Below are positions 22,391-52,862 of a DNA stretch of 64,000 bases, piece by piece (the first letter of the stretch is position 1; every line of letters begins with the position of its first letter). The stretch is from assembly GCF_040147005.1 (NCBI RefSeq), contig NZ_JAMSHO010000001.1:868001-932000 (forward strand). Direction: 5' to 3'. Below the pieces are notes generated by a model. The model saw only the letters and a program-made list of their open reading frames with translations. It did not search any database and was not told the origin of the DNA. This stretch comes from Halomonas sp. H10-9-1 (lineage in GTDB: Bacteria; Pseudomonadota; Gammaproteobacteria; Pseudomonadales; Halomonadaceae). A program made the translations under genes and the position numbers.

Positions 22391-24390
22391 CTAGCCCAGG
22401 TCACCACCTCGCAAGAGGCGGATGAAGCGGCCCCGCAGGAACTGGTGGGTCAGTTGGTTACATCAGCTTCGGATGCCTATGCGGATGCCATCCAGACCTT
22501 GTACATCGCCTACTATGGCCGGCCCGGTGATCCAGATGGCATGGCATTTTGGACGGCTCAGGCACTTGCCAATGATGGCGATCTTGAAAGCCTCGTAGCA
22601 GCGTTCGGCAGCTCCGAAGAGTACACCGAGGGTCTGGCTCAGCTCGAGCCTGAAGCTCAAGTCGAAGCGCTATACCTTCAGATATTTGGCCGCGATGCGG
22701 ACGAAGAAGGTCTTGATTTCTATTCTCAAGCCCTCGCCGATGGTGACTTAAGTCTTGCCGAGATCGCCCTGACGATCGTCAACGGTGCCGCCGAAGACGA
22801 CCGAGAGGTGCTCGATGCGCGTCTCGACGTCGCCAAGGCAGTCACCGCGGCACTCGACTCCCCGGAAGAGCTGGCCGAGCTTTCCAGCGAGGAAGGTCTC
22901 CAGGCCATGCGCGACCTGTTGGGTGGTGTCACCAGCCGGGAGCAAGCGGATGCAGTGCTGGAAGATGTCGACAAGGCGGTTGGTGATGCGCTGGATACGC
23001 CGCTTCCCGAGCCAACCGTGACACTGGCCGCAGCGCTGGAAAACACCCCTGAGTCAGCCTATCGCTTGGATACCGAAGCGCAGCTGCAGGCTGGCACGCT
23101 CAGCGTAAGCGCGGCTCAGGACCTCTTTGCCGACGCCCAGAGCCTGGTAAATGGCGCTGAGAACGCCGCTGCGGTGGATCTCGACAACCTGCTGGCATGG
23201 CAGATCCAGGATAGCGCACAGGCTCTTATTGATGCCGCCGATGAGGCTGTCGTTCAGGAGGCGGACGCCGTCGGGGTGACCGATGAGCAGGTCACGCTGG
23301 CACAGGCTACCGCGCTGGAGGCACTGGCTAATTTCGACGGTGATCTGCCCACGGTGAGCTACATCCTTCAAGAAGCCCTCGACGCGGGCGAGAACCGTTA
23401 TAGCGACTATGCCATCCAGGTGGGCAGCGCCGTGGATGCCGGCACGCTTAGCGTTGATGAGGCGAGCCAGGCGCTGAGTGACCTCGAAGCGCTCATCGGT
23501 GGTGCCCAGAATGCCGGTGAACTAGAGGCTGGCGAGCTGCTGAACTGGTCCATCGAGGATGGCGTTGCCGCGATTCTCTCCGCCAGCGATGATTTGGCGA
23601 TCAGCGGTGCCGAGACAGTCTCCGTTACCAGCGATCAGGTCACCCTGGCCCAGGCCGAGGAGCTCCAGGCGCTGGAGAACTTCGATGGCGAGTTGCCCAC
23701 CGTGCTCTATACCCTGGAGCAGGCGCTGGACGCCGAGGAACTCCCCGGGGACTATGCGCTGCTGGACCTCCCGTATGCAGCGGAGGAGCTCAGTGTCGAT
23801 GAAGCCGAGGCGATGCGTAGCGAGGCGCAGTCGATCCTGTCGGGGGCGGCCAACGCCGATGATTTAGAACTGGCGGACCTGCTCTCCTGGACGCTGCTCG
23901 ACAGCGGGCAGTCCCTGTTGGCCGCCGTGGAGAGCGAGGCCTTCCAGCAGGCCGATAGTTTTGCCTTCGACAGCGGTAATCAGGTCTACGTTGACAACGA
24001 CGGCGAGGTGAGTGGCTATCAGACCCTCCAGAAAGCCATCGCTGCCGCCGATGATGGGGCGACTCTGCTCGCGGCTCCGGGCGAGTATGCTGAGGATGTC
24101 GACTACACGGGGGCCGTGTCGGTTAACGTTACCGGCATGACACTCAACGGTGCCAATGCTGGTGTAGCAGGTACAGATCAGGGCCGCGTCACCGAATCCA
24201 TCATCAATGGCAAGCTGGATGTCGCGGCCAGCGACATCACTATCGACGGTTTTACCATCGACCATGACGATGGGTACGCGCTTTCGATGTCGGCAGGCAC
24301 CAACCTAGTGTTCCAGAACAACATCGTGACTGGGGCCGAAGGAACCCAGTTGGACTACCATGGTGGACCCAACGATACCTTGACGTTCCA
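22391..24390 (+). pseudogene. Large DUF4214 secreted protein, piece 3 (3'-truncated)
   Basis: About 665 residues continue the gene: two more DUF4214 repeats (LYIAYYGRPGDPDGMAFWTA; LYLQIFGRDADEEGLDFYSQ), then alanine- and glutamate-rich helical repeats with the recurring phrase VTLAQAxxLxALxNFDG, then a right-handed beta-helix-like end (ASDITIDGFTIDHDDGYALS). The ORF can be read from 22325 inside the IS end, giving MVRLLNYNRFSAAFF as a false N-terminus. At 24390 it is cut by another IS1380-like element, so the natural C-terminus is lost. Confidence 0.75.
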
Positions 24391-36743: not shown

Positions 36744-37880
36744 ATGGTCGATCTGAACAACGAACTACGCAGCACCCTGCTGGACAGCGGGGTCACCATC
36801 AGTGCGGACCTGGCCAATCGCATCATCGAGTGGGGCATCGGCTACCTGGAAGACAACACCGGCGTGGCGCTGCGCGGCCGCGACGAGATCACCGAGGCCG
36901 AGCAGGCGCAGATCGAGGAGTGGCTTGCCGTACCGGAGAACGCCCTGGCCTATGGCATGGCGTTCATGCAGCAGCCCTTCTACCAGGAGTATCTCGAGGC
37001 GTTGCAGAACATCGAGATTCCCGATGTCGACCCGCCCGCCGAGGAGCCCGATACCGAGACACCGCCCGATACCGACCCCACGCCGGACCCGGCACCGCCG
37101 CTGGATATCGACAGCGTGCAGGAGTGGGTGGAAGCGGTGGCCAGGCTCTACGCCGGCCTGCTCGAGACCACGCCCAGCGATCAGCTTATCGAGCTGTGGC
37201 GTGCCCAGTACGACACCGCGGTCGCGCTTACCGAGAAGGCGCTCACCTTCCTCGGCCAGGCCGGGCTGCCCGACCCCGAGAGCGATCCGGATGCCTTCTT
37301 CCAGCAGCTCTACCTCGACGTGCTGGGGCGCGAGGCCGACGAAGACGGCCTGGCCTACTGGACCGGCCTGCTCGAGCAGGGGCGTGCGCTTTCCGATCTG
37401 CTGATCGAGTTCACCTCCTCCGAGGAGGCGCGCGATGCCCTGCAAAGCCTGCTGGAAAGCGCCCTGCAGGGCGTGGACTACACCCAGCCAGCCGGCAACG
37501 GGCTCTCCGACGAGGCCTCGGTGGACAGCATCTACCAGGCCATCCTTGGCCGTGACCCCGACGACGAAGGGCGCGACTACTGGCTCGAGCAGCTGGCGGC
37601 GCAGGAAGACCCCGACGACCTCTCGCCGTTGATCGAGAGCTTCCTGACCAGCGACGAGTTCCAGCAGGCCAATGCCGACCTGGCCGATGCCGACTACCTG
37701 GCCATGCTCTACCTGCAGGTACTGGGGCGCGTGGCCGATGCCGGTGGGCTGGCCTACTGGCAGGGCGTGCTGGAGGAGGGCGGCGATCGCGCCGAGGTGG
37801 CCGAGGCCTTCATCGAGAGCGACGAGTACCTGATCCTGCTCGCCGGCACCAGCGCCGAGGGCGACGTCAGCATCGCCTGA
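36744..37880 (+). CDS. DUF4214 domain surface protein
   Basis: A 378-residue acidic protein without a Sec signal peptide. After a helical N-terminus and a Pro/Asp/Thr-rich linker (EEPDTETPPDTDPTPDPAPP), three DUF4214 repeats follow: FFQQLYLDVLGREADEDGLAYW, SIYQAILGRDPDDEGRDYWLE, and MLYLQVLGRVADAGGLAYW. Such proteins are often exported by type I systems and bind calcium or the cell surface. It ends at a strong hairpin and is convergent with the AraC genes. Confidence 0.75.
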   Translation: MVDLNNELRSTLLDSGVTISADLANRIIEWGIGYLEDNTGVALRGRDEITEAEQAQIEEWLAVPENALAYGMAFMQQPFYQEYLEALQNIEIPDVDPPAEEPDTETPPDTDPTPDPAPPLDIDSVQEWVEAVARLYAGLLETTPSDQLIELWRAQYDTAVALTEKALTFLGQAGLPDPESDPDAFFQQLYLDVLGREADEDGLAYWTGLLEQGRALSDLLIEFTSSEEARDALQSLLESALQGVDYTQPAGNGLSDEASVDSIYQAILGRDPDDEGRDYWLEQLAAQEDPDDLSPLIESFLTSDEFQQANADLADADYLAMLYLQVLGRVADAGGLAYWQGVLEEGGDRAEVAEAFIESDEYLILLAGTSAEGDVSIA

Positions 37881-37900
37881 GGCCACGCCAACCCGCCGTC

Positions 37901-37928
37901 ACACCGCCGCCCACCCGGGCGGCGGTGT
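37901..37928. terminator. Strong GC-rich hairpin between convergent genes
   Basis: Perfect 12-bp stem ACACCGCCGCCC and its complement with loop ACCC. There is no U-tract, so termination may be bidirectional and weak, but the position between two convergent stops supports the call. Confidence 0.6.
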
Positions 37929-37956
37929 CATATTCGGGCTATGTCGTCGAAACACG

Positions 37957-38787
37957 CTATGACAGGTTGCCGGGCAGCGCCTCGAAGCGCCAATCGCCCA
38001 GCAGCGGCGACAGTGCGCCCTTGCGGAAGGCGCGGGCGGCCACGCCGAAGCGCTGGCGAAACAGCCGCTGGAACTGTTCGGTAGAAGAGAAGCCGTTGTG
38101 GAACAGTAGCCCCTTGATCGCCTTGCGATCCTGCTGGGGGTTGCGCAACAGCTGGGCGACGCGGTCCAGGCGCAGCGCGTGCAGGCAGGTCTTGAAGCCG
38201 CCGCAGGGTGTCAGCACTCGGTAAAGCCCCGCCCGTGACATGCCCATGGCCTGGGCGATGTCCTCGGCGCGCAGCGTGTGCTCCGCCAGGCGCCGGCGCA
38301 TCAGCGTATCCGCCTCTGCCAGCAGGGAGCACTCACCCGTCTCCCCCAGGGCCGGGGCGGGGCAATAGAGCAGGTCGCTGATCGCCTGGGCGATGTAGCG
38401 CTGGCTCTCCGGGCTGATGCGCTCGATACGCAGTGTCAGCTCCTCCAGCAGCGCCTGCACCAGATGTCCCTGTTCGTGTTCCAGCAGGCGATGCTGTCCT
38501 CCCGTCAAAGGCGACACCGCCAGCCGGTAGGACGGCACCTCCAGGGCGATGGCCGCGCCCTCCAGCGCTACCACCTGCGACCCCGTCGGGCCCAGCAGCA
38601 ATGGCGTCGTGTCGCTTTCCAGGCCCTCTTCGGGCACGTTGATGCGCCCGTCGCGCGGTACCAGCAACCACTGGGTGTGCGGGTCGTGCAGGGTGCAGGG
38701 GGGCGGCAGGGCCTTCATGCGTGCCGGTGGCATCTGCCACAGGCGGATGTCATCCAGATGGGCGAGCAGGCGCGGGGCTAGCGGCAT
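37957..38787 (-). CDS. AraC-family transcriptional regulator (distal)
   Basis: A 276-residue regulator with a C-terminal AraC DNA-binding domain: TLRAEDIAQAMGMSRAGLYR (first helix-turn-helix) and IKGLLFHNGFSSTEQFQRLF followed by RQRFGVAARAFR (second). The N-terminal domain is unrecognised. Its start lies one base after the stop of the other AraC gene, so the two form an operon. Confidence 0.85.
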   Translation of the reverse strand: MPLAPRLLAHLDDIRLWQMPPARMKALPPPCTLHDPHTQWLLVPRDGRINVPEEGLESDTTPLLLGPTGSQVVALEGAAIALEVPSYRLAVSPLTGGQHRLLEHEQGHLVQALLEELTLRIERISPESQRYIAQAISDLLYCPAPALGETGECSLLAEADTLMRRRLAEHTLRAEDIAQAMGMSRAGLYRVLTPCGGFKTCLHALRLDRVAQLLRNPQQDRKAIKGLLFHNGFSSTEQFQRLFRQRFGVAARAFRKGALSPLLGDWRFEALPGNLS

Positions 38788-38788
38788 G

Positions 38789-39832
38789 TCACACCTCCAG
38801 GCGCTGCAGCAGATCGCCGGCCTGGCCCTGGGGCAGGCGCGCGAACAGCTGGGGCAGCGGGTCGTCCTGAATCGGGTTGAGGTGCTCGCGCGAGAGCTGG
38901 TTGAAGTGCTCCAGCGACATCTCGAAGGTCTGCTCGAAGGCCTGACGCAGCGCGGTTTCCGACGGGAAGCACAGCTGGTCGGCCAGCGTCGCCCAGTCCG
39001 TGGCCTGGCCGCGCTGCTCGGTCATCTGCTTGGCCACCCAGCACAGGCGCCGAAAGCGAATGAACGCCGAGGGCCCGCCGGCATCGCGAAACAGCCGGTA
39101 GAGTTGCGAGCGCGAGATCTGGAAACGCTGTGCCAGGTGCCCCGCCGACAGCGCCGGATCATTCAGGTGGGCGTCGATATAGCCGAGGATCTCGCGGCGA
39201 ATGGCCTGATGCACATGGGAAAGCCCGGGCGGCTGACGCTGCGAGGTCAGCGCGGCGAGGATCAGCGCACGGCTGACCCGCTGGCAACACTCGAACTGCT
39301 CGCGGTTGAGCCCTTCCACCAGGTCGCGGGTGGCCACCAGGTGCCGGGCCAGCAGCCGCGTGGCCGGGTGCCGCGGCATCAGCCGCGTGCCGTGCAGACC
39401 GGGCGGCAGCGGCAGTTCCTCATCCTCCTGCGGCACAATCAGCTGCAGCGATACCAGCCCGTCGGTGACGATCTGGCGTGGCCGGCTCATGTCCTCCAGC
39501 AGGATGTCACCGGCCCCCAGGCTCAGGTCATGTTCGCAGTCGTGATAGCGCACACGCCCGCGGATCACCAGCATCACCAGGTACAGCGGTGCACCACCCA
39601 ATGCCAGTTGGGTGGCATCCCGCCGTGTGATCTGCGCCGAGGCATGGATGTCGCACAGCATGCCCGTACCGCCTAGCCAGGCATCGATACGCCCGCCGAA
39701 CGGGCGCCGGTGCAAACGATCGGGCGAGGTGACCGGGTTGAGCACCTCGCGCCAGGTGTCTTCGCCCTGCGCAGGAACGAGTGGGCGGGTGTCGATGCGG
39801 CGGTAAGCGACGTCGTCTGGCTTAGCCGACAT
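38789..39832 (-). CDS. AraC-family transcriptional regulator (proximal)
   Basis: A 347-residue regulator. The N-terminal AraC-binding-like domain contains PLYLVMLVIRGRVRYHDCEH. The C-terminal domain has LSAGHLAQRFQISRSQLYRL and a second helix-turn-helix ending FEQTFEMSLEHF. It is divergent from the small secreted protein gene across a 461-bp intergenic region, so it is a candidate controller of the matrix locus. The start ATG follows AAAGGG. Confidence 0.85.
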   Translation of the reverse strand: MSAKPDDVAYRRIDTRPLVPAQGEDTWREVLNPVTSPDRLHRRPFGGRIDAWLGGTGMLCDIHASAQITRRDATQLALGGAPLYLVMLVIRGRVRYHDCEHDLSLGAGDILLEDMSRPRQIVTDGLVSLQLIVPQEDEELPLPPGLHGTRLMPRHPATRLLARHLVATRDLVEGLNREQFECCQRVSRALILAALTSQRQPPGLSHVHQAIRREILGYIDAHLNDPALSAGHLAQRFQISRSQLYRLFRDAGGPSAFIRFRRLCWVAKQMTEQRGQATDWATLADQLCFPSETALRQAFEQTFEMSLEHFNQLSREHLNPIQDDPLPQLFARLPQGQAGDLLQRLEV

Positions 39833-40293
39833 TGAGCTACCCTTTGTTAATTATCGATACGTGCTGTTACATTACTCTCTTGATCAGCGCTTGCCAATGT
39901 TTCGCCAATATCTTGGCAATGGCCGGCTGGCCCTGTCACCGCCTGAGACAGAATGCCGGGTTATCTGGGAGCGTCATGTCGTGCAGAACGCGGGTATATC
40001 GGCATAAGCTTGATTCACATCCAGCGACGAAAGCCTCGACATACCGCGGCCAGTGCCTGGTAAAAGCGTAGCGCAATGGCTTGTTTTACGGTCATACGAC
40101 TGTTCGAAAGCTAAGCAAAGTAAGCTTTCTGTTGCATCGGGATAACTTTCTTTACAAGCCGCCTGCGCTTGCTATGTTCAAGAGAGCCTTGCCGGGTTCG
40201 AAAAAAGCCAAGCCGCATGGCATGACAGGGCATCGGCATCGACTTTCGTCGCGCATTTCATCGCAACGCGCAACATCACTGGGGACACGAATC
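39833..40293. other. Long divergent intergenic region
   Basis: 461 bp without a convincing gene between an AraC gene and the small secreted protein gene. It is more AT-rich than its surroundings and includes the palindrome at 40106. Upstream in-frame codons exist for the secreted protein but lack a ribosome site. Confidence 0.5.
40106..40129. promoter_or_regulatory. Palindromic candidate operator
   Basis: GAAAGCT and AGCTTTC, a perfect 7-bp inverted repeat with a 10-bp spacer, 165 bp upstream of the secreted protein start. Confidence 0.35.
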
Positions 40294-41067
40294 ATGAAGC
40301 GTCGAGCAAGCACGACCGCCTCGACGGCGGGCAAGGTACTGATGGCGGCGACTCTTGCCGCGGCCATCGGGCAGGCGGCCGTGGTGCAGGCCAACGGCTT
40401 TGGCGAGAATAGCTCCTGGCAGTTCAAGAGCGCCAACGACCGCATCGCCGATGTCAATACGCTGGATCTCATCGAGCGCAAGAAGGGCGGTTACTACGAC
40501 TCCTTCGACGTCACCAACAACTACACCACCAACTTCGCCGGCGACCAGATCAACTGCTATCAGAGCGCCAGTACCACCGGTAATTCCGGTTCCAACCAGA
40601 TGGACGCCGTCACCTCGTCGCCCACCACCGGCACCCAGGGTTCCGGCATGGATTCCATCACCGTGGGCAACGACGCCGCCACCGATGTCTCCGGCAGTAA
40701 CCCGCCCTACAGCAACGACTCCACCTCCAACGTGGCCTCCACCCAGGCGGATCAATACGCCAACGTCGGCCAGAGCAACAGCAACAGCTCGCAGAGCTCC
40801 TCGCTCTCCGATTCGGCCATCTCCAGCAACGTGGGCAGCGTGGACGCCAATGGCGGGCTGACCGACCAGGCGCTCAACTCCAACCAGCAGAACCAGGACA
40901 GCATGCTCACCGCCGCCATCAACGACAGCACCGGCTGTACCTTCAGCGGCGGTGGCAGCGGCGGTTACAACAATCAGCCCAGCAGCTCGGTAGGCAGCTC
41001 GGGGAATTCCGGTAATAACTCCGGCAACACCAACGGCAATTCTGGCAACAGCACCGGGTATTACTGA
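40294..41067 (+). CDS. Small secreted Asn/Ser/Gly-rich protein, possible matrix subunit
   Basis: A 257-residue protein with a Sec signal peptide (MKRRASTT..., hydrophobic VLMAATLAAAIGQAAVVQA, cleavage near VQA-NG). The start ATG follows GGGGA. The mature part is NGFGENSSWQFKSANDRIAD, then long stretches rich in Ser, Asn, Thr, Gln and Gly, ending SSGNSGNNSGNTNGNSGNS followed by TGYY. There are two Cys (INCYQ, TGCTF). The family is unrecognised. Composition and location before the giant repeat protein suggest a fibre or matrix component; amyloid character is speculation. Confidence 0.6.
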   Translation: MKRRASTTASTAGKVLMAATLAAAIGQAAVVQANGFGENSSWQFKSANDRIADVNTLDLIERKKGGYYDSFDVTNNYTTNFAGDQINCYQSASTTGNSGSNQMDAVTSSPTTGTQGSGMDSITVGNDAATDVSGSNPPYSNDSTSNVASTQADQYANVGQSNSNSSQSSSLSDSAISSNVGSVDANGGLTDQALNSNQQNQDSMLTAAINDSTGCTFSGGGSGGYNNQPSSSVGSSGNSGNNSGNTNGNSGNSTGYY

Positions 41068-41100
41068 GCCGACGCAGCGCAACACGCAGCGCGGTGCTAA

Positions 41101-42674
41101 CCCGGATGTTGCACCGGGTCAGTCAGAAGTCCCCAGATGCCAGGCTCGGTGGGGATAAAAGGGATCTGAGGTGGAGTTTGGCTGCTTTTTGATCAAGTTC
41201 CTGTGCTCAGGGCGCACCTCCCCCCACCCCCATGTCTTTTCTGTGCCGGGGACAGCACGCCGCGGCGCTATCCGGGCACCAGCTTGTTGGCCAGCTTCAG
41301 GAAGAGGTCCTGCTCCGGGTACTGGCTGCTCAACATCAGCCGAATCGTGCGCGTGTTGCGGGTGATGACAGCGCCGATCTTCAGCAGCTTCAGGCGGAGG
41401 GTGTTGACCTGGGCCTGGGCGAAGGCGGTGCGCCTGAGGTAAATCCGGCGTAGCCGCTCCAGCAGCAGGTAGGCCAACCCCGACAGCAGCAGTCGGTACT
41501 GGTTGGGCCACCATTCGTGGCAGCTGGTGCGGTCGGAGAACAGGAACTGCTGCTCCTTGATGCGGTTCTCCATCTCGCCCCGGGCACAGTAGCGGTGGTC
41601 ATAGAGCCACTCGGCGCTGCAGCCGCGCAGGCTGGTGACCACATAGCGGGTGTTGAAGCCACGCCGGCTGGTCTCGGACTTGACGATGACCTTTCGTCGA
41701 CGCTCCTTCCAGCTCTTGGCAGCGTACTCGATGAAGCCGAAGACACGCTCCTTCTCCCAACTCTTCTCGAAGCGGATAGCCGACGTGTAGTCGATGTCCA
41801 GAGCCAGCTTGGCCAAGCGCTTGTTGCCGGCGAGGCCGATGATGTAATCGACGCCGTGGCGGTCACACCAGTTGAGGATCAGTGGACGGCAGAAGCCGCT
41901 GTCGCCTCGGAAGACGATCTTCACCTCAGGCCACGCCTGGCGCAGCCGCCGAACCAACAGGGCGAGGATGGCACCGGCGTGGTGAGCGGCATCCAGCGAG
42001 GCCGGACGCAGATAGCTGACCAGCAGCTGGTCGCCACAGAATACGAACAGCGGCAGGAAGATGTAGTGGTTGTAGTAGCCGTTGAAGTGCCGCCCGAGCT
42101 GCTGGCCATGCACCCGATCGTCGGTGGCATCGAAGTCGAGGTAGAGCGGCTTCTTGGGTGGCCGCCGGAACGAGCGGATGAACTGCCCGATCATCTCCTC
42201 GTGGATGGTAGCCGCCCAGTCCCGATCGGCCTGCTGCTCGAAGCGACACAAGGTGGACTGGCTGGCCAGCACGCCATCGGTATCGACGGCGGTCTGCAAG
42301 GCGATGTCGTGACGCAGGGCCTGGTGGTCATTGAGGTCCTCATAGCCCAGCGCCAGGCCGAAAACGCGCTGCCGGACCAGGGTTTCGGTGCGATGCAGGC
42401 AGCGTTGAGGATCGCGGTCATCACTCAGCCGGCGAGCGATAGCGCGGGTCAGGCCCATCTCGCGGTCGAGCTGCCGCAGCAGCAGGATGCCACCGTCAGA
42501 GGTGACCTCGCCGCCATCGAAGCTGGCGGTGATCTGACGGCCTTTGCAGCGTGGAAAGGTGGCGGTGGGCGTGGTACATTTTGTCATGGCGGCTGTGTCG
42601 GCTAATTCTTGATTAGGCTCTTGAATTATAACCGATTTTCAGCCGCTTTTTTCATGCCTGGTGCAATATTCGGG
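41101..42674 (-). mobile_element. IS1380-family element (type B, copy 2)
   Basis: A 1574-bp element with the same ends as 20817-22390. The flanks are CTAA on the left and CTAG on the right, so the target duplication is imperfect. The sequence to the left contains only 33 bp after the previous stop and no start for the giant gene, so the 5' end of that gene was lost. Confidence 0.85.
41268..42587 (-). CDS. IS1380-family transposase (type B, copy 2)
   Basis: A 439-residue transposase with the same blocks as copy 1 (FDGGEVTSDGG, LYLDFDATDDRVHGQQ, FRGDSGFCRP). Scattered substitutions cluster around residues 245-300. It appears intact. Confidence 0.9.
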   Translation of the reverse strand: MTKCTTPTATFPRCKGRQITASFDGGEVTSDGGILLLRQLDREMGLTRAIARRLSDDRDPQRCLHRTETLVRQRVFGLALGYEDLNDHQALRHDIALQTAVDTDGVLASQSTLCRFEQQADRDWAATIHEEMIGQFIRSFRRPPKKPLYLDFDATDDRVHGQQLGRHFNGYYNHYIFLPLFVFCGDQLLVSYLRPASLDAAHHAGAILALLVRRLRQAWPEVKIVFRGDSGFCRPLILNWCDRHGVDYIIGLAGNKRLAKLALDIDYTSAIRFEKSWEKERVFGFIEYAAKSWKERRRKVIVKSETSRRGFNTRYVVTSLRGCSAEWLYDHRYCARGEMENRIKEQQFLFSDRTSCHEWWPNQYRLLLSGLAYLLLERLRRIYLRRTAFAQAQVNTLRLKLLKIGAVITRNTRTIRLMLSSQYPEQDLFLKLANKLVPG

Positions 42675-43511
42675 CTAGCCGTGGCCAAGGCCGCCGATCT
42701 CACCACTCTGAATTTTAATCTTGATGGCTCTGCAATCCCGCCAACACCCAATGAAATCAATGCCATTACGCTAACGGCGAACTCTCAGCTTAATGAGGAG
42801 AATCGTCAGGTATCAGAATCTGACCTGACCGTTAGCACTCAGAATGCCAATGTCACCGAGACAGGGTCTCCGCTAAGCCCTGAGGTCAACAATAATTTGA
42901 TTTTCGCCGAGGGCATCGGTAACGAATTCGAGAGCACCAACTTCGCGGGCCCTCTTGACCTGAATGACCTTAATCCGGCAGGTGGCGATGGCCTGATCGC
43001 CTCCGGTCAGCTCTTTGCGCCCACGACGACCTCCAGTGTTAGCACTACTAACGGCGCAGTCAGTGCCAGTATTGACTACACTAGCACCCCGGTGACCATC
43101 GAAGGCAACCGCATCACCGCCGCGGCCATGGGCAACACCGTCGATATGAGCATGTCGGGTGATATTCCCAGCGGCTTCACTAGTTCTGATACTGGCTCGT
43201 TTAATCTGAACCTGAGTGGCGCCAATTCTGAGCTGGAAGGTACTGCGACCCTACAGCTGGCCAGCCAGCAGGCAACGGTGGGGCTTAGCAATGGCGGCTC
43301 AGACCCCATCGCCTCTACCAGTGATTCCCAGGTTCGCTTGAATCTTAGAAATAGCGCCAACATGGCTGATACGGTGAATGTGAACCGTAATCAGATCGAT
43401 GCCAGCTTTATGGCCAACGATGCCAGCCTCAGCATCAATCTTGGCGATGATGAGCGCAGCGTCTTCCTTGGCACCCTCTCCGCGGCGAGCGTGCAAAACA
43501 ATATCGGAGCT
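42675..43511 (+). pseudogene. Giant repeat surface protein, 5' piece
   Basis: About 280 residues start at AVAKAADLTTLNFNLDGSAI, which looks like the end of a signal peptide and the mature N-terminus. Repeats of the giant protein follow (VTIEGNRITAAAMGNTVDMS; VNVNRNQIDASFMANDASLS). The natural 5' end is missing. An ORF beginning at 42609 inside the IS reads MIRLLNYNRFSAAFFMPGAI followed by FGLAVAKAAD, which itself looks like a signal peptide. The frame ends at an IS5-type insertion and resumes at 46345. Confidence 0.65.
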
Positions 43512-43577
43512 AGGCTGCGTTAACAATTGCTGATGGAGATCGGGCTGATTTAGAATATCAGCATTTTTCGGTGATCT

Positions 43578-43946
43578 ATGCCTCGGCTAATGCTACGTGA
43601 TGACCAATGGGAGCGCATCGAGCACATGCTCCCCGGCAAAGCTTCAGATCGCGGGGTGACGGCCAAGGACAATCGCTTGTTCGTGGAAGCCGTCCTGTGG
43701 ATCGCCCGGACAGGCGCTCCCTGGCGTGATCTGCCCGACGCCTTCGGTCGCTGGCACACTGTCTACATGCGCTATAACCGGTGGTCTAAGAAGGGGGTCT
43801 GGCAGCAGGTTATCGACACATTAGCCGATGATCCCGACATGGAGCAGCTGATGATAGATGGCAGTATCGTCAAAGTTCATCAGCATGGGGCGGCAAAAAA
43901 ACGGCTCAGAGCACCGAAGCCATGGGGAAATCGCGTGGGGGATTGA
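43578..43946 (+). CDS. IS5-family transposase OrfA
   Basis: 122 residues, MPRLMLRDDQWERIEHMLPG, FVEAVLWIARTGAPWRDLPD and MIDGSIVKVHQHG, the N-terminal half of an IS427-group transposase with the first catalytic Asp in IDGS. A run of seven A's at 43895-43901 (AAAAAAACGG) is the expected slippery site for fusion with the second frame. Confidence 0.8.
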   Translation: MPRLMLRDDQWERIEHMLPGKASDRGVTAKDNRLFVEAVLWIARTGAPWRDLPDAFGRWHTVYMRYNRWSKKGVWQQVIDTLADDPDMEQLMIDGSIVKVHQHGAAKKRLRAPKPWGNRVGD

Positions 43947-44111
43947 GCACCAAGATCCACGCGGCGGTCGATGCCCTCGGCAACCCGGTACGGCTAATCC
44001 TCACACCGGGCCAAGCGTCTGAGTACGGAGCCGCCCCAGCGTTACTGGCGGGCTTTTCTCCAGCGGCGGTGCTTGGCGACAAGGGGTATGATTCCACCGC
44101 TTTGAGGGACA
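43922..44111 (+). pseudogene. IS5-family transposase OrfB, truncated
   Basis: GKSRGGLSTKIHAAVDALGN to AAVLGDKGYDSTALRDM, the second part of the DDE domain, with Asp in GDKGYD. The IS21 element cuts it before the catalytic Glu. Confidence 0.75.
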
Positions 44112-44190
44112 TGTCAGGCGACACGTAAAACTGACCCCCAGGCGACACGGAAAATTGACCCCTCCGTGAGCTCATCAGGAGGGTCCGCCC

Positions 44191-45498
44191 ATGAAGAAAT
44201 CCGGATATAACGTTCCCCACACTCAGGTACGAGGGGAACCGATGCAGAGCCCAGAGGATGTCGCCGCCATGCTGCGCCTGAAGGCCTGTGGCTGGGGCAC
44301 CAAGCGCATCGCCGATGAACTCGGTGTCAGCAGGAACACCGTCAAGCGCTACCTGCGCCAGGGCGGCTGGGCGCCCTACGCGAGCCCGCAGCGCAGCAAG
44401 TCGCTGGAAGGGCTGGAGGAATGGCTGAAGGCCCGCTTCCTGCAGCATGCCGGCAACGCCGCCGTGGTCCTGCAGGACCTGCAGCTCGAACACGGCATCA
44501 CGGTCAGCCTGCGTACGGTGGAACGCGCCTGCGCGCCGTTCCGCCAGGCACTGGCCGCCGAAGCCAAGGCCACGGTGAGGTTCGAGACGCCGCCCGGGAA
44601 GCAGCTGCAGATCGACTTTGGCAGCCGCCACATCACCATCAATGGGGAGTCGGTCAAGGTCTTCCTGTTTGTCGCCACCCTGGGCTACTCCCGCCGCCTC
44701 TACGTCCGTGCCTTCCGGCACGAGCGGCAGTCGGCGTGGTTCGCCGGCCTGGAGGGCGCCTTCCGCCACTTTGGCGGGGTGCCAGAGCAGGTGCTGCTGG
44801 ATAACGCCCGGGCGCTGGTCGACCACCACAACGCGGCGACCCGCGAAGTCGTGTTCAACGAGCGGCTGGCGGCCTTTGCCCGCTACTGGGGGTTCCGGCC
44901 GGTGGCCTGTGCGCCGTACCGTGCCCGCACCAAGGGCAAGGACGAGCGTGGCGTCGGCTACGTGAAGCGTAACGCCATCGCCGGCCGGACCTTCGCCACC
45001 TGGGCGGCGCTGGAGGCCCACCTGAGCTGGTGGATGCGCGAGATCGCCGACCAGCGGGTGCATGGCACCACCGGCGAGCTGCCGGCGGTGCGCTTCATCG
45101 CCGAACAGGCCAGCCTGCAACCGCTCAACGATCGGGCGCCCTTCGAGCAGGCCCGGGAGCTGAACCGGCGGGTTCAGCGCGACGCCACCGTGGAGGTCGA
45201 CACCAACCGCTACAGCGTGCCCTGGCGCCTGGTCGGTGAGCCTGTCCAGGTCAGCGTGACCGACGGCGAACTGCGGGTGCACCACGCCGGCCGCGAGGTG
45301 GCCCGCCACCCGGAGCTGGGCGGGCGCCGCCAGGTGCGCTGCCTGCCGGAGCATCTGCAGGGCATCGTCGGCTACCGATCACCCAAGGCGGACACCGAGG
45401 AGGTCGTGGCGTCCAGCGAGATCGTGACCACCTTGCCGCCGGCCGCGCTGCAGCGCGACCTGACCGAGTACGAAGCCGTGGTGGGAGGTGGCTGGTGA
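44191..45498 (+). CDS. istA: IS21-family transposase IstA (type b)
   Basis: A 435-residue DDE transposase with a helix-turn-helix (GTKRIADELGVSRNTVKRYL), QLQIDFGSR (Asp), EQVLLDNARALV (Asp) and RARTKGKDERGVGYVKR (Glu), plus RYSVPWRLVGEPV. The start follows AGGAGGG. The stop overlaps the istB start by one base. Confidence 0.9.
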   Translation: MKKSGYNVPHTQVRGEPMQSPEDVAAMLRLKACGWGTKRIADELGVSRNTVKRYLRQGGWAPYASPQRSKSLEGLEEWLKARFLQHAGNAAVVLQDLQLEHGITVSLRTVERACAPFRQALAAEAKATVRFETPPGKQLQIDFGSRHITINGESVKVFLFVATLGYSRRLYVRAFRHERQSAWFAGLEGAFRHFGGVPEQVLLDNARALVDHHNAATREVVFNERLAAFARYWGFRPVACAPYRARTKGKDERGVGYVKRNAIAGRTFATWAALEAHLSWWMREIADQRVHGTTGELPAVRFIAEQASLQPLNDRAPFEQARELNRRVQRDATVEVDTNRYSVPWRLVGEPVQVSVTDGELRVHHAGREVARHPELGGRRQVRCLPEHLQGIVGYRSPKADTEEVVASSEIVTTLPPAALQRDLTEYEAVVGGGW

Positions 45499-46292
45499 TG
45501 ACGACGCCGGAGACTGAGCGCCTGGACGCCATGCTGACGCGTCTCAAGCTGACCGCCATCCGCGAGCGGCTCGACACGCTGCTCGACGAAGCCGCACGCC
45601 GGGAGCTGACCCTGCGCGAGACGCTGGCCTACCTGTGCGAGCAGGAGGTGGCCCATAAGGAGCAGCGGCGCATCCAGATGGGGCTGAGCATCGCCCGCTT
45701 CCCGTTCCTGCGCACTCTGGAAGGGTTCGACTTCAGCGCCCAGCCTGCCGTCGACCCCGGTCAGATCCGTGAGCTGGCCTGCGGGCGCTGGATCGCCAAC
45801 GGCGACGCCCTGCTGCTGCTCGGCCCGCCGGGCGTGGGCAAAAGCCATCTCGCCGTGGCACTGGGCCGGGAGGCGGTCAAGGCTGGCTACTCCGTGCTGT
45901 TCACCACCGCCACGGCACTGATCACCCAGCTGGTCCAGGCCCATGCCAACGGCGCCCTGGAGGAGCGGCTGAGGCACTTCGCCAAGCCCAAGCTCTTGAT
46001 CATCGACGAACTGGGCTACCTGCCGCTGGAGCCGGGGGCGGCCAACCTGTTCTTCCAGCTGGTCACCCGGCGTTACGAACGCGGAAGCCTACTGGTGACC
46101 AGCAACCGGGCGGTCAGCGAGTGGGGCGAGGTGTTCGGTGACGCCGTGGTCGCCACGGCGATCCTTGACCGACTGCTGCATCACAGCCACGTCATCACCA
46201 TCCGCGGCGACAGTTACCGACTGCGTGCCAAACGCAAGGCCGGGCTGATCAAGCCCGACACCATCCACCATCACGAGCAGGTCGTCAGGTAA
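45498..46292 (+). CDS. istB: IS21 helper ATPase IstB (type b)
   Basis: A 264-residue AAA+ ATPase with GPPGVGKSHLAVAL (Walker A) and LLIIDELGYLPL (Walker B). The ATG sits in TGATG, coupled to istA; a GTG one codon earlier is also possible. Confidence 0.9.
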   Translation: MTTPETERLDAMLTRLKLTAIRERLDTLLDEAARRELTLRETLAYLCEQEVAHKEQRRIQMGLSIARFPFLRTLEGFDFSAQPAVDPGQIRELACGRWIANGDALLLLGPPGVGKSHLAVALGREAVKAGYSVLFTTATALITQLVQAHANGALEERLRHFAKPKLLIIDELGYLPLEPGAANLFFQLVTRRYERGSLLVTSNRAVSEWGEVFGDAVVATAILDRLLHHSHVITIRGDSYRLRAKRKAGLIKPDTIHHHEQVVR

Positions 46293-46344
46293 GGGGGTCA
46301 GATTTCACTGTCGCCAGGGGGTCAGTTTCTGATGTCGCTTGACA

Positions 46345-49300
46345 CACGTCCCGTGGCAACCAGTCGTCAATTGATTTGCAAGGTGGCAACGGTATTGCCA
46401 TGTCCGGTGGTGGCACCACCATCGTTCGTGCACTGGATGATACCACCGCTCCGCAAATTGATATTGATTCTGATATCACCGGTGTGACGGTTCAAAACAA
46501 TGTCAATAGCGAATTTAGCGCTGAGGCTACAGGTGTAGACCAGCGTGTGCTGCTGGGTGGCATTGTTAACGACGGCACGCTGGATATGAGCCGCAATCGT
46601 ATTGCAGCTCAGGCCGACGGCAATAACGCTGCAACCGAGATGGACTTCGCAGGTGGCAGCTTCGATAACAGCCTGACTGCGTCCACATCCCAGTTCAATA
46701 GCGGACAAGGGGGTGAGGTAAGCGTTACGGCCACCTTGGGTGATGGTGCTGATCTTCCTCGTGTCGCAGCAGGCTTTGGTGGAGCTGTGGTTACCATCGA
46801 TGGTGCCTTGACACTGGACGATAATACTCTAGTGGCCCAGGCCCGCGGCAATGCCGCCGATACGTCGGTCTCGCTGACTCCCGACGGCAATGTGTCTAGC
46901 CCCGCCCAGGCAGCCGATGGTGCTTCGGTATCCTCCGTCACCTTCAATCCGGGTGCAGAGACGGTTGACGTTGGCTCCAGTGACACGGCGCTGCTGACCA
47001 CTCAGGAGAACACCACCAACCAGCAGACCTTCTCCGCCACTATCAATGACGGTGAAGTCGCGGTAAGCGGCGTCGCTGCCGGTAGCACCGTGACCGGCAC
47101 CGTCTCGCTGGATGATAACGCCATTCTGGCCGAGGCCCGCGGCAACACCGCCGGGTCCGAGCTGATTATCGATGCCGGCAGCGTCGGTTCACGTAATGTG
47201 ATTGGCACCGCACAGCTCACTGGGGTGGGCCCTGGCGGCGCAGCCGAAGTGTCTGCTACCTCCACCGGGTCACTTAGCGTGCGTGCGGGGCTTAACGCCG
47301 ATGCGACCGATGCCGCGTTGAGCCTGGACGGCAACCTGGTCGGTGCCCAGGCAGTCGCCAATGAGTCGGATAACAGCCAGAGCATCACCGCCGATACCAG
47401 CATCCTGTCTGCTCAGCAGCAAGGCTATGAAGCCTCCGCCACGGCTGCTGGAGAATTCACCGCGGCGGGCAGCTTTGCCGTCAGCAATCTGCAGATCGCC
47501 AATAATACCCAGGCGACGGCAAACTCCTCGGCCTCGGAAGATCGCGTACTGCTCGATATGACCGATGGGTCCTTGACCGATTCCAGCGCGTCATTGAATG
47601 AAAACACCCTGATCGCTGAGGCGCGCGCCAACCGCACCAGCAACAGCGTCGAGTTGGAAGCCGGCACCAGTATCGGCGGTGACGAGGTCCCGGCAGGTGC
47701 TACCAGCGCCGTGATCCAGAACGCCCAGACCATGCTGCGTGACGGCGGTGACTCATCGGCTACGGCCACCATGGCAGATGCCCGCGTGCAGCTGGCTGGT
47801 GGTGCAGACGTCACGGATTCCACCATCCAGGTGAATGACAACCTGCTGGCGGCCGTTGCCGAGGGTAACGGGGCGACCAATACGATCGAGGCCAATGCGG
47901 GAACCAGCATCCTCTCGCGGACGTCTGGCACTTTCGCCGCGGATGCGGTGTCGGGTATCCAGCCTAATGGTGACGTCAGCGCCAGCGGCAATTTCGCCAT
48001 CAGCAACGTTCAGGCGGCCGACGGTAATATCCAGGCGACAGGCAGCGATGCCGGCGTGGACGTAGCGCTGGGCGCGCTGACCGGTGAGGCCAACGTCTCC
48101 GCCTCCGATAACGCCCTGCTGGGCCAGGCACGCGGCAACAGTGCCACCAACCGCATCTCGCTGGGCACCAACGATGACGATGCCGGCAGCGTGGGCGTGG
48201 CCATCAACACCACCGGCGCCATCACCAGCAGCCAGTTCCTGACCCAAACCGGTGCTAATGACACCCTGTCGGGCAGCATGACCGGCTCCAACGTCAGCGT
48301 GACCAGCGGCGATATCGAATCCGCCACCCTGGCAGCGGATGGCAACGTGATCGGCGGCCTGGCCACCGGCAACACCCTGACCAACCGTATCGACTTGGCT
48401 GCCGGCACGGGCCTTGAGCGCGTTGGCGCGACCTCGGCCAGTGCGGATACCATTTTCGATGTGGATGCCAGCGGCAGCTTCACCATCGCCAGCTTCCAAG
48501 CGGCAGGGCTGGTGGCCGGGCCGGTTAACGAAACCGTTACCATCTCGGCGGCGGCTGACGATAACCTGGTCAACGTCGACTTCGGCGCCCTGACCAGCGA
48601 CGGCAACGTCAGCGTGACCGGCAATGCCATCCTGGCCGAGGCGCGGGGGACTCGCGGCACCAACCTGATCGGGGTGGGCGACAACGGCGATCTGAATGCC
48701 GGTACCTCTATCGCCTCCACCGCCGGCATCGTCAGCGACCAGACCACCTTCGGCGACCTGACCTCGACGGCTAACGACAACACCCTGAGTGTTGACGGCG
48801 GTGCGCTTAACAGCGGCAGCGTGGCGGTGGATAACAACCTGGTGGCGGCTCAGGCCACGGCCAACAGCAGCCAGAACGTGATCGATCTGGATGCCGGTAC
48901 CGGCTTCGATCTGGATGCCGGCCAGGCCAGCGCAGTGGTGTCTGGCGCCACCAACCTGGCGCCCAATACCACGGCCAACGGTGCCAGCTTCGTGATCGCC
49001 GATCGCCAGACGGCGGATGGCACCATAAGTGCCACTTCCAATAACGCGCTCACCGAGATCAGCCTGGCTAGCGTGGATGACGACGGCGCCCTGCAGGTCA
49101 ACAATAATGCCACCCTGGCTGAATCGCGTGGCAACGTGGCCAGCAACGCCATCTCGCTGGATGCTAGCAACACCGTGGATGCCTCCGCCGGCATTGCCAG
49201 CTCCCAGGCGCAGACCGGCGCCATGGACGCCACCGTGAACAGTGCCACGACCCGCCTGATCGTCGGTGGCGGCATCAACAGCGGCAAGGCGGTGGTGGAT

Positions 49301-50782
49301 GGCAACGCCATCGGCAGCCTGGCGGTCGGCAACACCGGCGCCAATACCCTGCTGGCCAGCGGTGGGCGTATTGAGCTGGGCAATGGTGGAACCGCGACAT
49401 CGCTGACCAACGGTCTTATCACCGCGGCTTCTGGTGTCACCATCAGCAGCAGCGTGGCGGACTACGTCATTACCTCCCAGCAGGAGGTGGTGCGTGACAA
49501 TCAGTCCAGCACGGCGACTACTAATGAGTCGCGGATCGACCTGCAGGCCAACGGCCTGACCGAGTCGGGCAGCCTGGCGGCGACCAATAATACGGTCAGC
49601 GCCGAGGCGGGCCTCAACCGGCAGACCAACACCCTGCAGTTGCTGGCCGGTGATGATGCCAACCCCGGCACCTCCATCACCAGCAGCGGTGCCATCACCA
49701 ACCTGCAAACTGGCGTATTGGAGAGTGGTTCCGACCTGTCGTCTATCGTCAATGCCAGCAGCGATGATACTGGCATCTTCCTGAATAGCGGCGTGGTTGA
49801 CACGGATGCCAGCCTGCAGGTGACCGGCAACGAGGTCTATGCCGATACCGCCGGCAACGTGGCCGCCAACCGGCTCAATGCCCAGGCTGGCACCACGCTG
49901 GGTTCCACCGGTGGCGCCATGGTGGCAGCCAACATCGACGGTACGGTGGATACCGCCACCGGCGATTTCGTGGTGCAGAACCGTCAGAGCCTCGAGTTGA
50001 TTGAATCTGGGCTCTCATCAGAAGTAGGAGGCGGTAATGTCAGGCCGGTCATCTCGGTGACCACGGATCTGGCCAACGGCAATGTTGCGCTTAACGACAA
50101 CGCCATTCGCGCCAGCGTCGACGGCAACGATGCCAGCAACGTGCTGACCATGGGCGCAGGAACCTCGCTGGGTACCAGCGGCGCGGTGGCCAACCGTCAG
50201 GATGTCACCGGTGGTTCGCTGTCGGCGTCTATCCAGAACCCGAGCATCGAGCTCAACAAGACCGGTAGCACCGATGATGGCCGCCTGAGCGTCAACGGCA
50301 ACGCCATCGAGGCTACGGCCAGCGCCAACAACGCGCTGAACGCCATGGGCGTCACCGCCGGCACCCGTGTCAACGGCTCCGGTACCGATGCCACTGGCAG
50401 CAACGCCACCATGACGGCCGACTTCGCGGTGCTCAACAGCCAGCGCAGCACCGCGGGTGTGGGCGCCTCGATCAGCGATGCCAATGTCAGCCTGGATAAC
50501 CAGGGCAGCTTCAACGGCATGAACACCGCCAACAACAACCGCATCGTGGCCTCGGCCTTCGGCAACCAGGCGGTCAATCAGGCCAGCCTGTCCAGCGCCG
50601 GGCCCAACGACGCCAGTGTCGGCATCACCAACAGCCAGTACAACGGAGGCTCCATCACCGCCAGCATCAACGGCGCGTCCGTCAACGCCAACATCAGCGG
50701 CGGCGTGTCACGGATGAACGGCAACTCTATCGGGGCTCGCGCGGTGGGCAACAGCGCCACCAGCCGTCTGAGCAACCGTTAA
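46345..50782 (+). pseudogene. Giant repeat surface protein, 3' piece
   Basis: About 1,478 codons remain open from TSRGNQSSIDLQGGNGIAMS to the stop. At least 18 copies of a motif of the form N-x-I/L-x-A-x-A-x-G-N-x-A-x-N-x-I/L occur, for example NAILAEARGNTAGSELII, NALLGQARGNSATNRISL and NSIGARAVGNSATSRLSN, spaced roughly 80 residues apart. AGTSI and GAI-x-S-x-Q phrases lie between them. I see no Cys or Trp and very few Lys. The pattern predicts a long repetitive beta-structure on the cell surface or in the matrix. No family is recognised. It is followed by a strong terminator and then the exported peptidoglycan-binding pair. Without the 5' piece it has no good start. Confidence 0.75.
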
Positions 50783-50840
50783 ACGCTGAGGATTGCATGG
50801 TATCGAGCTAGCCGGTTTGCTGCTGGATACCATGCCACTC

Positions 50841-50876
50841 GCCGAGGTGGCAGTCTGACTGCCCCTCGGCTTTTTC
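50841..50876 (+). terminator. Rho-independent terminator after the giant gene
   Basis: Two-part stem GCCGAG...GGCAG, loop TCTGA, CTGCC...CTCGGC, then TTTTTC. Confidence 0.8.
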
Positions 50877-50894
50877 TCGTCAGGAAGGAAACCT

Positions 50895-51500
50895 ATGACC
50901 ATGAGGCTACGCACCAGAACCGGGCTGGCGGCCGCCGCCCTGGCCGTGTTGACGGTGTCGCCGGTGCACGGCGCCGACTCGCAAGGCAACTATGCGGTGC
51001 TGGGCGCGGGAAGTTTTGCCTGCGAGCGCTTCATTGCCAGCGCGGAGTCGCAAAGCCGTCAGGAAATCAATCAGTTCATGTCGTGGATGCAGGGCTATCT
51101 GACGGCACTCAATCGCGAGCGCGACGGCATCTTTTCCGTGTCGCCGTTCGTTTCCGCTTCGGATACCGCGGCCATGCTGCTCAATGTGTGCCGTCAGCAG
51201 CCGGAGCTGCGGCTGGAGAACGCCCTGCGGGAGCTGGCCGACTTCCTGGCCGGCTATCGCATCGAGCAGGCCAGCGAGGTGGCCCAGATTGCCTCGGGAG
51301 ATGCCACGGTGGCCGTGCGTGCCTCGGTGCTGGGCGATGTCCGCCAGCGGCTGGCGACACTCGGCCACGACGTGGGCGACGGTGATGCGCTGTTCGATGA
51401 TTCGCTGCAGCAGGCACTACGCGAGTTCCAGCGCGAGCAGGGCCTGACCGAAAGCGGCGTCCCCGATGCCGATACCTTGTTACGGCTCTTCTACCAGTGA
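50895..51500 (+). CDS. Exported peptidoglycan-binding protein 1
   Basis: A 201-residue protein. A Sec signal peptide (MTMRLRTRTGLAAAALAVLT...VHG-AD) is followed by an N-terminal domain GAGSFACERFIASAES...WMQGYLTALNRE...NVCRQQPE with two Cys, which resembles HdeA-like small periplasmic domains. A C-terminal PG_binding_1 domain follows (VRQRLATLGHDVGDGDALFD then DSLQQALREFQREQGLTESG). It starts after AGGAAGGAAA. It is probably periplasmic and may anchor the surface system to the wall. Confidence 0.75.
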   Translation: MTMRLRTRTGLAAAALAVLTVSPVHGADSQGNYAVLGAGSFACERFIASAESQSRQEINQFMSWMQGYLTALNRERDGIFSVSPFVSASDTAAMLLNVCRQQPELRLENALRELADFLAGYRIEQASEVAQIASGDATVAVRASVLGDVRQRLATLGHDVGDGDALFDDSLQQALREFQREQGLTESGVPDADTLLRLFYQ

Positions 51501-51522
51501 GTCGCGTCTGCAGGAGGTGCAT

Positions 51523-52125
51523 GTGAAATGGATGATCGGTGCCCTGGGCACCCTATGCGTGGCGGCCACCCCGCCTGCCGCCCTGGCCGCCAATGCCGAT
51601 GGAGACTATGCCGTCAGCGGTGCCGGCAGCCAGAGCTGCGAGCGTTTCGTTACGGCCGTGGAGCAGAACGATGAATCGGCTGCCCTGTTCACGCGTTGGA
51701 TAGAGGGCTATGCCACGGGCCTGAATGCCAACCTCGATGAGACCTTCGATGTCTCGCCGTTTGCCTCGGCCAACCCGCTGACGCAGCTGACCCTGTGGGT
51801 CTGCCGTAACAACACCGAGGCGCTGGTGGAACAGGCGCTGGCGGAAGTGATTGTGGCGCTGGAGCCGGTGAAGACCCGCGAGGCCAGCGAGCCACGTGAA
51901 ATGAGCCACCAGGGGGAGAGCGTGATGGTGCGCCCCGCCACCCTGCGCCTGGCCCAGCAGCGGCTGACCACGCTTGGCCACTACGCCAGCACCATCGATG
52001 GCCTCTACGGCCCCGGCACCCGCCGCGCCTTGATTGCCTTCCAGGAAGAGGCGGGGCTTGACACCACGGGCCTGCCGGATGCGGCCACGCTGATCGCCCT
52101 GTTGATCAATCAGGACGACAACTGA
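51523..52125 (+). CDS. Exported peptidoglycan-binding protein 2
   Basis: A 200-residue paralogue of the previous gene with the same plan. A signal peptide (VKWMIGALGTLCVAATPPAA-LA) is followed by GAGSQSCERFVTAVEQ...WIEGYATGLNAN...WVCRNNTE and PG_binding_1 (LAQQRLTTLGHYASTIDGLY then GPGTRRALIAFQEEAGL). The start is GTG, chosen because AGGAGG lies five bases upstream and the overlapping ATG meets an immediate stop. Tandem duplication is evident from shared spacing and motifs. Confidence 0.75.
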   Translation: MKWMIGALGTLCVAATPPAALAANADGDYAVSGAGSQSCERFVTAVEQNDESAALFTRWIEGYATGLNANLDETFDVSPFASANPLTQLTLWVCRNNTEALVEQALAEVIVALEPVKTREASEPREMSHQGESVMVRPATLRLAQQRLTTLGHYASTIDGLYGPGTRRALIAFQEEAGLDTTGLPDAATLIALLINQDDN

Positions 52126-52139
52126 ACCAGGAGCACGAA

Positions 52140-52862
52140 ATGTTCAAGACGTTGGAAGCGCTGGATCTCCAGCAACACGCCGAGCTCAAGTATCGCCCGG
52201 TGACCGGTTACGCCTTCGCCCGCGAGCTGACCACCGCGCCGCTGTCGGCCAGCGAGGTGGTGCCGGCCTCGCGCCAGATGATGGTGGTGTTTGCCGGTAG
52301 CGATGCGATCAAGCCGGTGGTGCTGCTCTCCGCCCGCCAGGCCAGCAACCCCTTCGTGGCGGAATCGGGCGAGTGGCAGGGCGACTATATACCCGCCCAC
52401 ATTCGCCGCTACCCCTTCATCCTGGGTGAGAGCGGTACCCAGGGGCGCTATGTGGTGATGATCGACCGCGCCGCGCCCAATTTCGATGACCAGGCCCAGC
52501 AGGAGGGCGAGGCGCTGTTCGTGGATGGTAAGGCACCGGAGGGCGGCATGGTAGCGCGCGCCCGCGAGTTCCTGCTGCGTTTCCAGAACGAACTGGAGCA
52601 GACCCAGCGCCTGCTGCAGCCGTTGGTCGACAAGGGCGTGCTGGTGGAGCGCCAGCTCAACGTCACCCGCAACGGCAAGAAGGAGGTCGCAGTTAACGGC
52701 TTCAAGGTAGTGGATGCCGAGAAGCTCAAGGCGCTGGACGATGCCACCCTGGCGGCCTGGGCGCGCAGCGGCCTACTCGGCCTGGTCTATGCACATCTGC
52801 ATAGCCAGGGCAACACCCAGGCGCTGCTGCGTGGTATGCAGCAGGATGCCGAGGCGGCGTGA
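52140..52862 (+). CDS. SapC family protein
   Basis: A 240-residue SapC-like protein (PF07277 type): ASEVVPASRQMMVVFAG, YIPAHIRRYPFILGE, QGRYVVMIDRAAPNF, FDDQAQQEGEALFVDG, then NELEQTQRLLQPLVDKGVLV and VNGFKVVDAEKLKALDDATL. No signal peptide is seen, so it is probably cytoplasmic. SapC is named from S-layer protein secretion loci, but its biochemical role is unclear. It follows AGGAGCACGAA and lies 14 bp after the previous stop, so it shares the transcript with the two exported proteins. Confidence 0.8.
   Translation: MFKTLEALDLQQHAELKYRPVTGYAFARELTTAPLSASEVVPASRQMMVVFAGSDAIKPVVLLSARQASNPFVAESGEWQGDYIPAHIRRYPFILGESGTQGRYVVMIDRAAPNFDDQAQQEGEALFVDGKAPEGGMVARAREFLLRFQNELEQTQRLLQPLVDKGVLVERQLNVTRNGKKEVAVNGFKVVDAEKLKALDDATLAAWARSGLLGLVYAHLHSQGNTQALLRGMQQDAEAA

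Follow-up and report, generated by a model that had tools for sequence, protein, structure and literature searches.

Probable remnant of an HfaB-dependent surface-protein operon, broken by insertion sequences, in Halomonas sp. H10-9-1

Introduction

In the Caulobacter holdfast anchor system, the surface localization of HfaA and HfaD needs HfaB, and HfaA is described as amyloid-like, according to PMC6707917. The NCBIfam entries cited for this system are NF037935 and NF037936. In curli (CsgA/B-CsgG), the longest CsgA homologue reported in PMC3521004 has 529 amino acids. Here we analyze a 64,000-nucleotide stretch of the Halomonas sp. H10-9-1 genome (contig NZ_JAMSHO010000001.1, positions 868,001 to 932,000; hereafter the window). 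It carries genes for a small exported protein (SSP), a giant repeat protein, two paralogous peptidoglycan-binding proteins (the paired proteins) and SapC. A preliminary description, made from the sequence alone, regarded these genes as one uncharacterized surface-layer or amyloid-like matrix pathway. We find it very likely that the locus is the wreck of an operon dependent on HfaB, a CsgG-family pore, which in intact relatives would export SSP and the giant.

Results

On the plus strand the order is SSP, an IS1380-family insertion sequence (IS), a giant fragment, an IS5-like piece with an IS21-like element, a second giant fragment, hairpins, two paired-protein genes and SapC. The small Ser/Asn/Gly-rich exported protein of the preliminary description is SSP, encoded by an intact open reading frame (ORF) of 257 amino acids at 40294..41067 (plus strand, ATG at 40294) with a signal-peptide-like N terminus as judged by eye. 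SSP occupies the HfaA position. SSP, for which 51 homologues were found, has a conserved N-terminal block, ANGxGENxxWQF / DLIERKKGGYYDSF, followed by Q-x-N-x-G units and by a Ser/Asn/Gly-rich tail that is absent from most relatives. No tRNA was detected in the window, and no Rfam family reached its gathering score.

The place of the HfaB/CsgG gene is taken by the IS1380-family element (41101..42674, minus strand; transposase 41268-42587, E = 5.9e-115). Searches of the strain's own genome with NF037935 and PF03783 returned no matches, leaving it with no CsgG-family gene. It is because the element fills the place of the pore, in a genome devoid of CsgG-family genes, that we read the locus as a wrecked HfaB-dependent operon; the preliminary description overlooked the pore gene because the gene is gone. 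The left flank of the element begins 29 bp past the SSP stop codon, and the right flank lies within the signal peptide of the giant. For each of the seven other full IS1380 copies in the genome, the two 4-bp flanks agree (CTAG, CTAA, ATAG or TTAG). The window copy alone among the eight has unmatched flanks, CTAA (41097..41100) on the left and CTAG on the right. This is the pattern expected from DNA loss between two insertions, and such a deletion probably took away the pore gene together with the beginning of the giant gene. Weighing against this interpretation, the mismatch amounts to a single base. Within 20813-24403, a second copy of the element (94.8% identical) likewise abuts an ORF, whose frame emerges from the IS end with the peptide VRLLNYNRFSAAFFMPGAIFGLA. 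This ORF, starting at 22325, opens with nearly the same read-through peptide as the first giant part and is DUF4214-like by eye.

The giant gene is a pseudogene, because IS1380 replaces its start and the IS5-like and IS21-like insertion splits what remains. The N-terminal fragment (42675..43513, plus strand; right edge against the IS5-like piece not mapped exactly) has lost its start codon and most of its signal peptide. It lies in an ORF (42609-43523) that opens on 22 codons out of the IS1380 end, and the native giant reading restarts at L-A-V-A-K-A-A-D. In the intact homologue P0001 (1781 amino acids, 60% identical to the window giant) a normal-looking signal peptide runs into AVANAADLTTLNF; the equivalent in the window, AVAKAADLTTLNF, is preceded by the IS1380 end. 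The two giant fragments are separated by about 2.8 kb of IS DNA. The IS5-like piece (43514..44112, plus strand) was named by eye and has an approximate left edge; its 43524-44112 portion has six other 100% copies in the genome. The adjoining element (44112..46344, plus strand; transposase ORFs 44191-45498 and 45495-46292), which we take to be IS21-like from its two-gene transposase layout, has other full genomic copies at 95-98% identity. The C-terminal fragment (46376..50782, plus strand) is open for 1468 codons, and by eye tens of P0001 residues are absent from the window giant at the split. The frames of SSP, of both paired proteins and of SapC are still open here, but no pore is left for them, and the window copy cannot work as a pathway by this route.

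Related loci were sought with an SSP alignment in a collection of 84,980 species, each represented by a single genome. The 23 loci found are a lower bound, because the search relies on one short peptide pattern, and they include near-duplicates (L018/L019, L009/L010 and five from Comamonas), so that the independent number is smaller than 23. The carriers belong to the Comamonadaceae, Paracoccaceae, Roseobacteraceae, Caulobacteraceae, Novosphingobium and Mesorhizobium, together with H. alkaliantarctica and two loosely named metagenome-assembled genomes. On the profile map an HfaB/CsgG-family gene lies directly 3' of SSP in 22/23 loci; the remaining one, L023, is cut off by the end of its contig. 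With L010, L015 and L023 set aside as too short, 20 loci could be judged for the giant, and in 19 of them it comes after HfaB. L021 keeps SSP and HfaB, and the giant profile found no giant there; in L018 and L019 a stop divides the giant into two neighboring open frames. The synteny that the preliminary description had proposed to look for in other genomes was found in H. alkaliantarctica FS-N4 (SSP, HfaB, giant, paired, paired, SapC) and Marivita cryptomonadis (SSP, HfaB, giant, paired, SapC). Its statement that the gene set matches no described system does not hold, since the missing pore is of the HfaB/CsgG family. A search of the open-licence literature, with subscription journals mostly outside its scope, found no paper that, to judge by its entry there, describes this gene set.

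A separate later search found an SSP-HfaB-giant trio between EAL-domain genes on a Variovorax paradoxus plasmid (L087:6922-18159), annotated as hypothetical protein, hypothetical protein and S-layer family protein. Within the relatives of the strain, SSP was found only in its own genome, both with the window protein as query (1/97 genomes) and with a 20-row profile in the window's genus (1/90 genomes). The rarity in the genus fits either horizontal gain or a relic.

All four locus pores scanned match NF037935 (HfaB), with E-values from 2.8e-57 to 1.8e-71. However, their scores (193.9-240.4 bits, five proteins) are below the NCBIfam HfaB equivalog cut-off of 300. PF03783 was over its cut-off in 17/17 locus pores scanned, a lipobox-like motif is present in 16/16 pores listed (given as ALAC in L020, with LSGC following), and comparison of a pore with solved CsgG gave E = 5.7e-12. 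A profile of the locus pores recovers all nine Caulobacterales HfaBs (E = 1e-69 to 1e-76), which had been chosen as references for lying beside genes over the HfaD cut-off. In a phylogenetic tree, one side of a split with 100/100 support holds the locus pores together with the HfaBs and with two HfaB-like proteins from the genus of the strain; on the other side are eight CsgG-type proteins from the same genus and its order, whose role in curli is presumed. The locus pores were not recovered as a single clade.

These affinities raise the question of whether the locus is a diverged Caulobacter HfaABD holdfast anchor, with SSP as HfaA, the giant as HfaD and a function in polysaccharide anchoring. 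The pore matches and the same order of small, pore and large genes speak for it, as does a C-terminal box, A-x-A-V-G-N, that giants and HfaDs have in common. Written as [AST]x[AS][VITA]GN and sought within the last 30 residues, the box occurs in 21/21 giants and 9/9 HfaDs and in 1/232 control ORFs, many of which are chance frames; the definition was made after viewing those 21 giants and 9 HfaDs. Random internal windows contain it at 5.5% in giants and 17.7% in HfaDs. It is present in 53 of 64 further homologues, of which two had already been seen and some are near-copies of the loci, and in the Variovorax plasmid copy; in the window giant the box reads RAVGN. Nevertheless, neither HfaD nor any other NCBIfam model matched P0001, P0002, P0010 or the window giant fragments, and our own profile of nine HfaDs recovered no giant. 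Profile-profile comparison (hhalign) gave a probability of 18.7 for SSP against HfaA, with no hmmsearch hit, and 2.2 for the giant against HfaD. True HfaBs group on their own in the tree (98/100), apart from the locus pores. Among the 17 locus pores an OmpA domain is over the Pfam cut-off in four, sub-threshold in eight and not listed in five, whereas neither of the two true HfaBs scanned has one. Moreover, the Caulobacteraceae genome G104, which carries the locus, has no HfaD match. On balance we regard identity with the holdfast anchor as unlikely.

Two genomes of the strain's genus (L053:710-2486 and L054:12269-13872) encode, next after an HfaB-like gene, a smaller protein that carries ATAVGN close to the C terminus and is possibly a third kind of HfaB client. 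The 12-19 kb retrieved around these genes contain neither SSP nor a giant. A weak HfaB-like match (43.7 bits) was also seen in a Caulobacteraceae stretch (L055:3342-9283), about 4 kb from a SapC gene.

Downstream of the giant, two tandem hairpins with a T run (~50795..50876, plus strand; z = -7.2) form a terminator-like structure before the paired genes, in agreement with the terminator noted in the preliminary description, although a simple consensus terminator scan did not list them. Hairpins also lie 3' of the giant in 6/6 other loci folded (z = -4.5 to -7.3 in L005, L006, L008 and L009, -2.9 in L017 and -1.9 in L020). The paired and SapC genes are therefore probably on a weaker or separate transcript. 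Paired protein 1 (50895..51500, plus strand) has a signal peptide as judged by eye, a helical two-Cys domain with a predicted HdeA/Rap1a-like fold, and a PG_binding_1 domain. Its paralogue, paired protein 2 (51466..52125, plus strand), probably starts at 51523 or 51532. The two exported paralogues with a Cys-containing domain and PG_binding_1 are thus as first described; they are 37% identical, with PG_binding_1 E-values of 4e-12 and 1.6e-14. The SapC-family gene (PF07277; 52140..52862, plus strand; E = 6.6e-58), also correctly named at the outset, follows 14 bp after paired protein 2. A sequence search of solved structures gave no match to SapC.

The paired proteins and SapC are accessory. 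Paired proteins occur in 6/23 loci (L005, L006, L009, L010, L017 and L020). In L009 and L010 the paired gene comes after the pore, lying before the giant in L009 and at the contig end in L010. SapC directly follows a paired gene in 2/23 loci, L017 and L020 (the latter in the longer stretch L051), and is found somewhere in the genome in 9 of 14 carriers examined. Weak paired-profile matches in L007, L014, L016 and L024 (39-44 bits, ORFs of ~400 amino acids), and most of those in 63/97 genomes, reach no further than the peptidoglycan-binding part and were excluded from these counts. We rejected the paired proteins as a constant component; relatives also occur away from the operon. Among 149 genomes around Marivita, searched at an E limit of 1e-12, there were three matches. 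Two were new, and the 15 kb retrieved for these contain no SSP, HfaB, giant or SapC gene. The relative in L057, without operon genes, decides nothing because its upstream side runs off the contig. A viral-contig scan with paired protein 2 gave no match. In L092 (8943-10720) a paired-protein relative directly follows an ORF with a VPLPAG...RRRR C terminus. This terminus is presumably PEP-CTERM-like, so the paired-protein module may serve other surface proteins too.

The genes upstream of SSP are a DUF4214 ORF (36744-37880; Pfam E = 2.4e-42, three stretches) and two AraC-type ORFs (37957-38787 and 38789-39832, minus strand). They do stand beside SSP as first described, but none of the three proteins has a counterpart in the 23 loci (phmmer, E 1e-3, up to 10 kb each side). 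Six loci (L003, L004, L007, L008, L011 and L024) have a shared cluster upstream of SSP, where the window has its two AraC-type genes; the one member scanned, in L008, is a LuxR-type response regulator. In several loci a further cluster, of hybrid histidine kinase type in the members scanned (L008 and L020), lies close to it.

The pathway of the preliminary description, an S-layer or amyloid matrix system with the giant, paired proteins and SapC as its core and ties to cellulose and c-di-GMP, appears improbable to us. The order giant, paired, SapC is indeed kept in H. alkaliantarctica and Marivita; a GGDEF/EAL gene adjoins SapC downstream in the window, and EAL genes flank the Variovorax copy. 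One conserved surface-type locus does exist. Its core, however, excludes SapC and the paired proteins, given their counts, and includes the co-occurring pore gene that the earlier set lacked. A simple motif scan for GGDEF/EAL within up to 10 kb was positive in 1/23 other loci (L013). The cellulose link was rejected, as BcsB was found in 0/19 other carrier genomes searched, and the cellulose genes near the locus are incidental neighbors. For an S-layer function the sole basis is the family name SapC.

As first described, the giant fragments contain neither Cys nor Trp and are rich in a repeated motif (N-x-I-x-A-x-A-x-G-N-x-A-x-N), although the giant is no single ORF but the split and truncated gene described above. 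Motif copies fitting at least 5 of 8 fixed positions number 19 in the C-terminal and 3 in the N-terminal fragment, as against means of 0.98 and 0.17 and maxima of 4 and 2 in 200 shuffles. As one of the 19 overlaps its neighbor, the total is about 21; a single copy fits all 8 positions. The repeats are ~79 amino acids long (median motif spacing 78.5 residues). Within 46376-50782 the spacing tends to alternate between ~90 and ~75 residues, which suggests a double repeat of ~165 residues with two subtypes. The C-terminal fragment has an N/Q ladder and a predicted β-solenoid fold. Specifically, the giant C terminus was predicted as all-β (pTM 0.78), and the top structural matches were β-helices.

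The β-helix matches, the adhesin PfbA among them, and the source name of homologue P0016, trimeric autotransporter adhesin, might indicate a two-partner or autotransporter adhesin whose repeats merely look amyloid and whose CsgG-type neighbor is unrelated. We consider this very improbable. No Pfam family was matched by P0001 (E up to 1) or by the window fragments (E up to 0.1), the giants terminate in a repeat half and not a barrel, and HfaB lies between SSP and the giant in 19/19 giant-bearing loci. That the system still functions here through two giant fragments and another pore is scarcely credible: long open frames persist in both fragments, and the genes for SSP, for the paired proteins and for SapC are undamaged, but the genome has no CsgG-family match, and the giant, interrupted by IS DNA, lacks a start codon and most of the signal peptide.

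Discussion

The wreck of an HfaB-dependent surface-protein operon is thus the reading that we favor. In intact relatives, SSP and the giant would be exported by Sec into the periplasm, as their signal peptides indicate. An HfaB-like lipoprotein pore would then carry both across the outer membrane, to judge from its homology to CsgG and the HfaB-dependence of HfaA and HfaD in Caulobacter. Outside, the giant may fold as a long N/Q-laddered β-solenoid, serving as an adhesin or matrix fiber, with SSP as its putative small partner by analogy to HfaA-HfaD. Anchoring of the complex to the wall may come from the OmpA-like domain that part of the HfaB homologues possess and, in certain lineages, also from the paired proteins, which from their predicted fold would be peptidoglycan-tethered, HdeA-fold, chaperone-like periplasmic proteins. 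In the window, IS1380 activity eliminated the pore gene along with the beginning of the giant gene, probably by DNA loss between two insertions, and what remained of the giant gene was split by the IS5-like and IS21-like pair.

More tentatively, the intact loci may constitute a distinct CsgG-family system, in which the pore exports single β-solenoids of 1000-2800 residues, ~2-5 times the longest CsgA homologue reported in PMC3521004, and peptidoglycan-tethered HdeA-fold chaperones take part in some lineages. The A-x-A-V-G-N box shared with HfaD would in that case be an export or capping signal, the function that we infer for it.

These results connect a specific export pore with a set of proteins whose present names are hypothetical, S-layer family or β strand repeat-containing, and extend the HfaB family past holdfast anchoring. 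The C-terminal signature common to the giants and HfaD is testable. If the giants pass through HfaB, the size limit and the substrate signal of CsgG-type pores become testable as well. The window itself illustrates the loss of an operon to insertion sequences.

Among known systems, HdeA/HdeB/YmgD and Rap1a/Tai4 resemble the paired proteins in predicted fold, at 7-16% identity and with Z-scores so low that they may reflect a common arrangement only. The paired proteins differ in being fused to PG_binding_1, and no acid-stress context was seen. With curli (PMC3521004), the locus shares a CsgG-family pore and, as predicted here, clients with N/Q-laddered β repeats. However, neither SSP nor the giant matches any Pfam family, the curlin repeat included, and the locus pores stand apart from the eight presumed curli proteins in the tree. 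The likeness to Caulobacter HfaA-HfaB-HfaD extends to the small-pore-large gene order (19/20 judgeable loci; the window has no pore), to the homologous CsgG-type lipoprotein pore, and to a large protein rich in A, N, G, S and T that ends in the A-x-A-V-G-N box. In contrast, SSP and the giant have no recognizable sequence homology to HfaA and HfaD, and the giants of intact relatives have 999-2792 residues, as against 374 positions in the HfaD model. Further differences are the OmpA-like domain on part of the locus pores, the accessory paired and SapC genes, and the distribution of the locus, which besides the Caulobacteraceae includes the Comamonadaceae, the Paracoccaceae/Roseobacteraceae and Halomonas.

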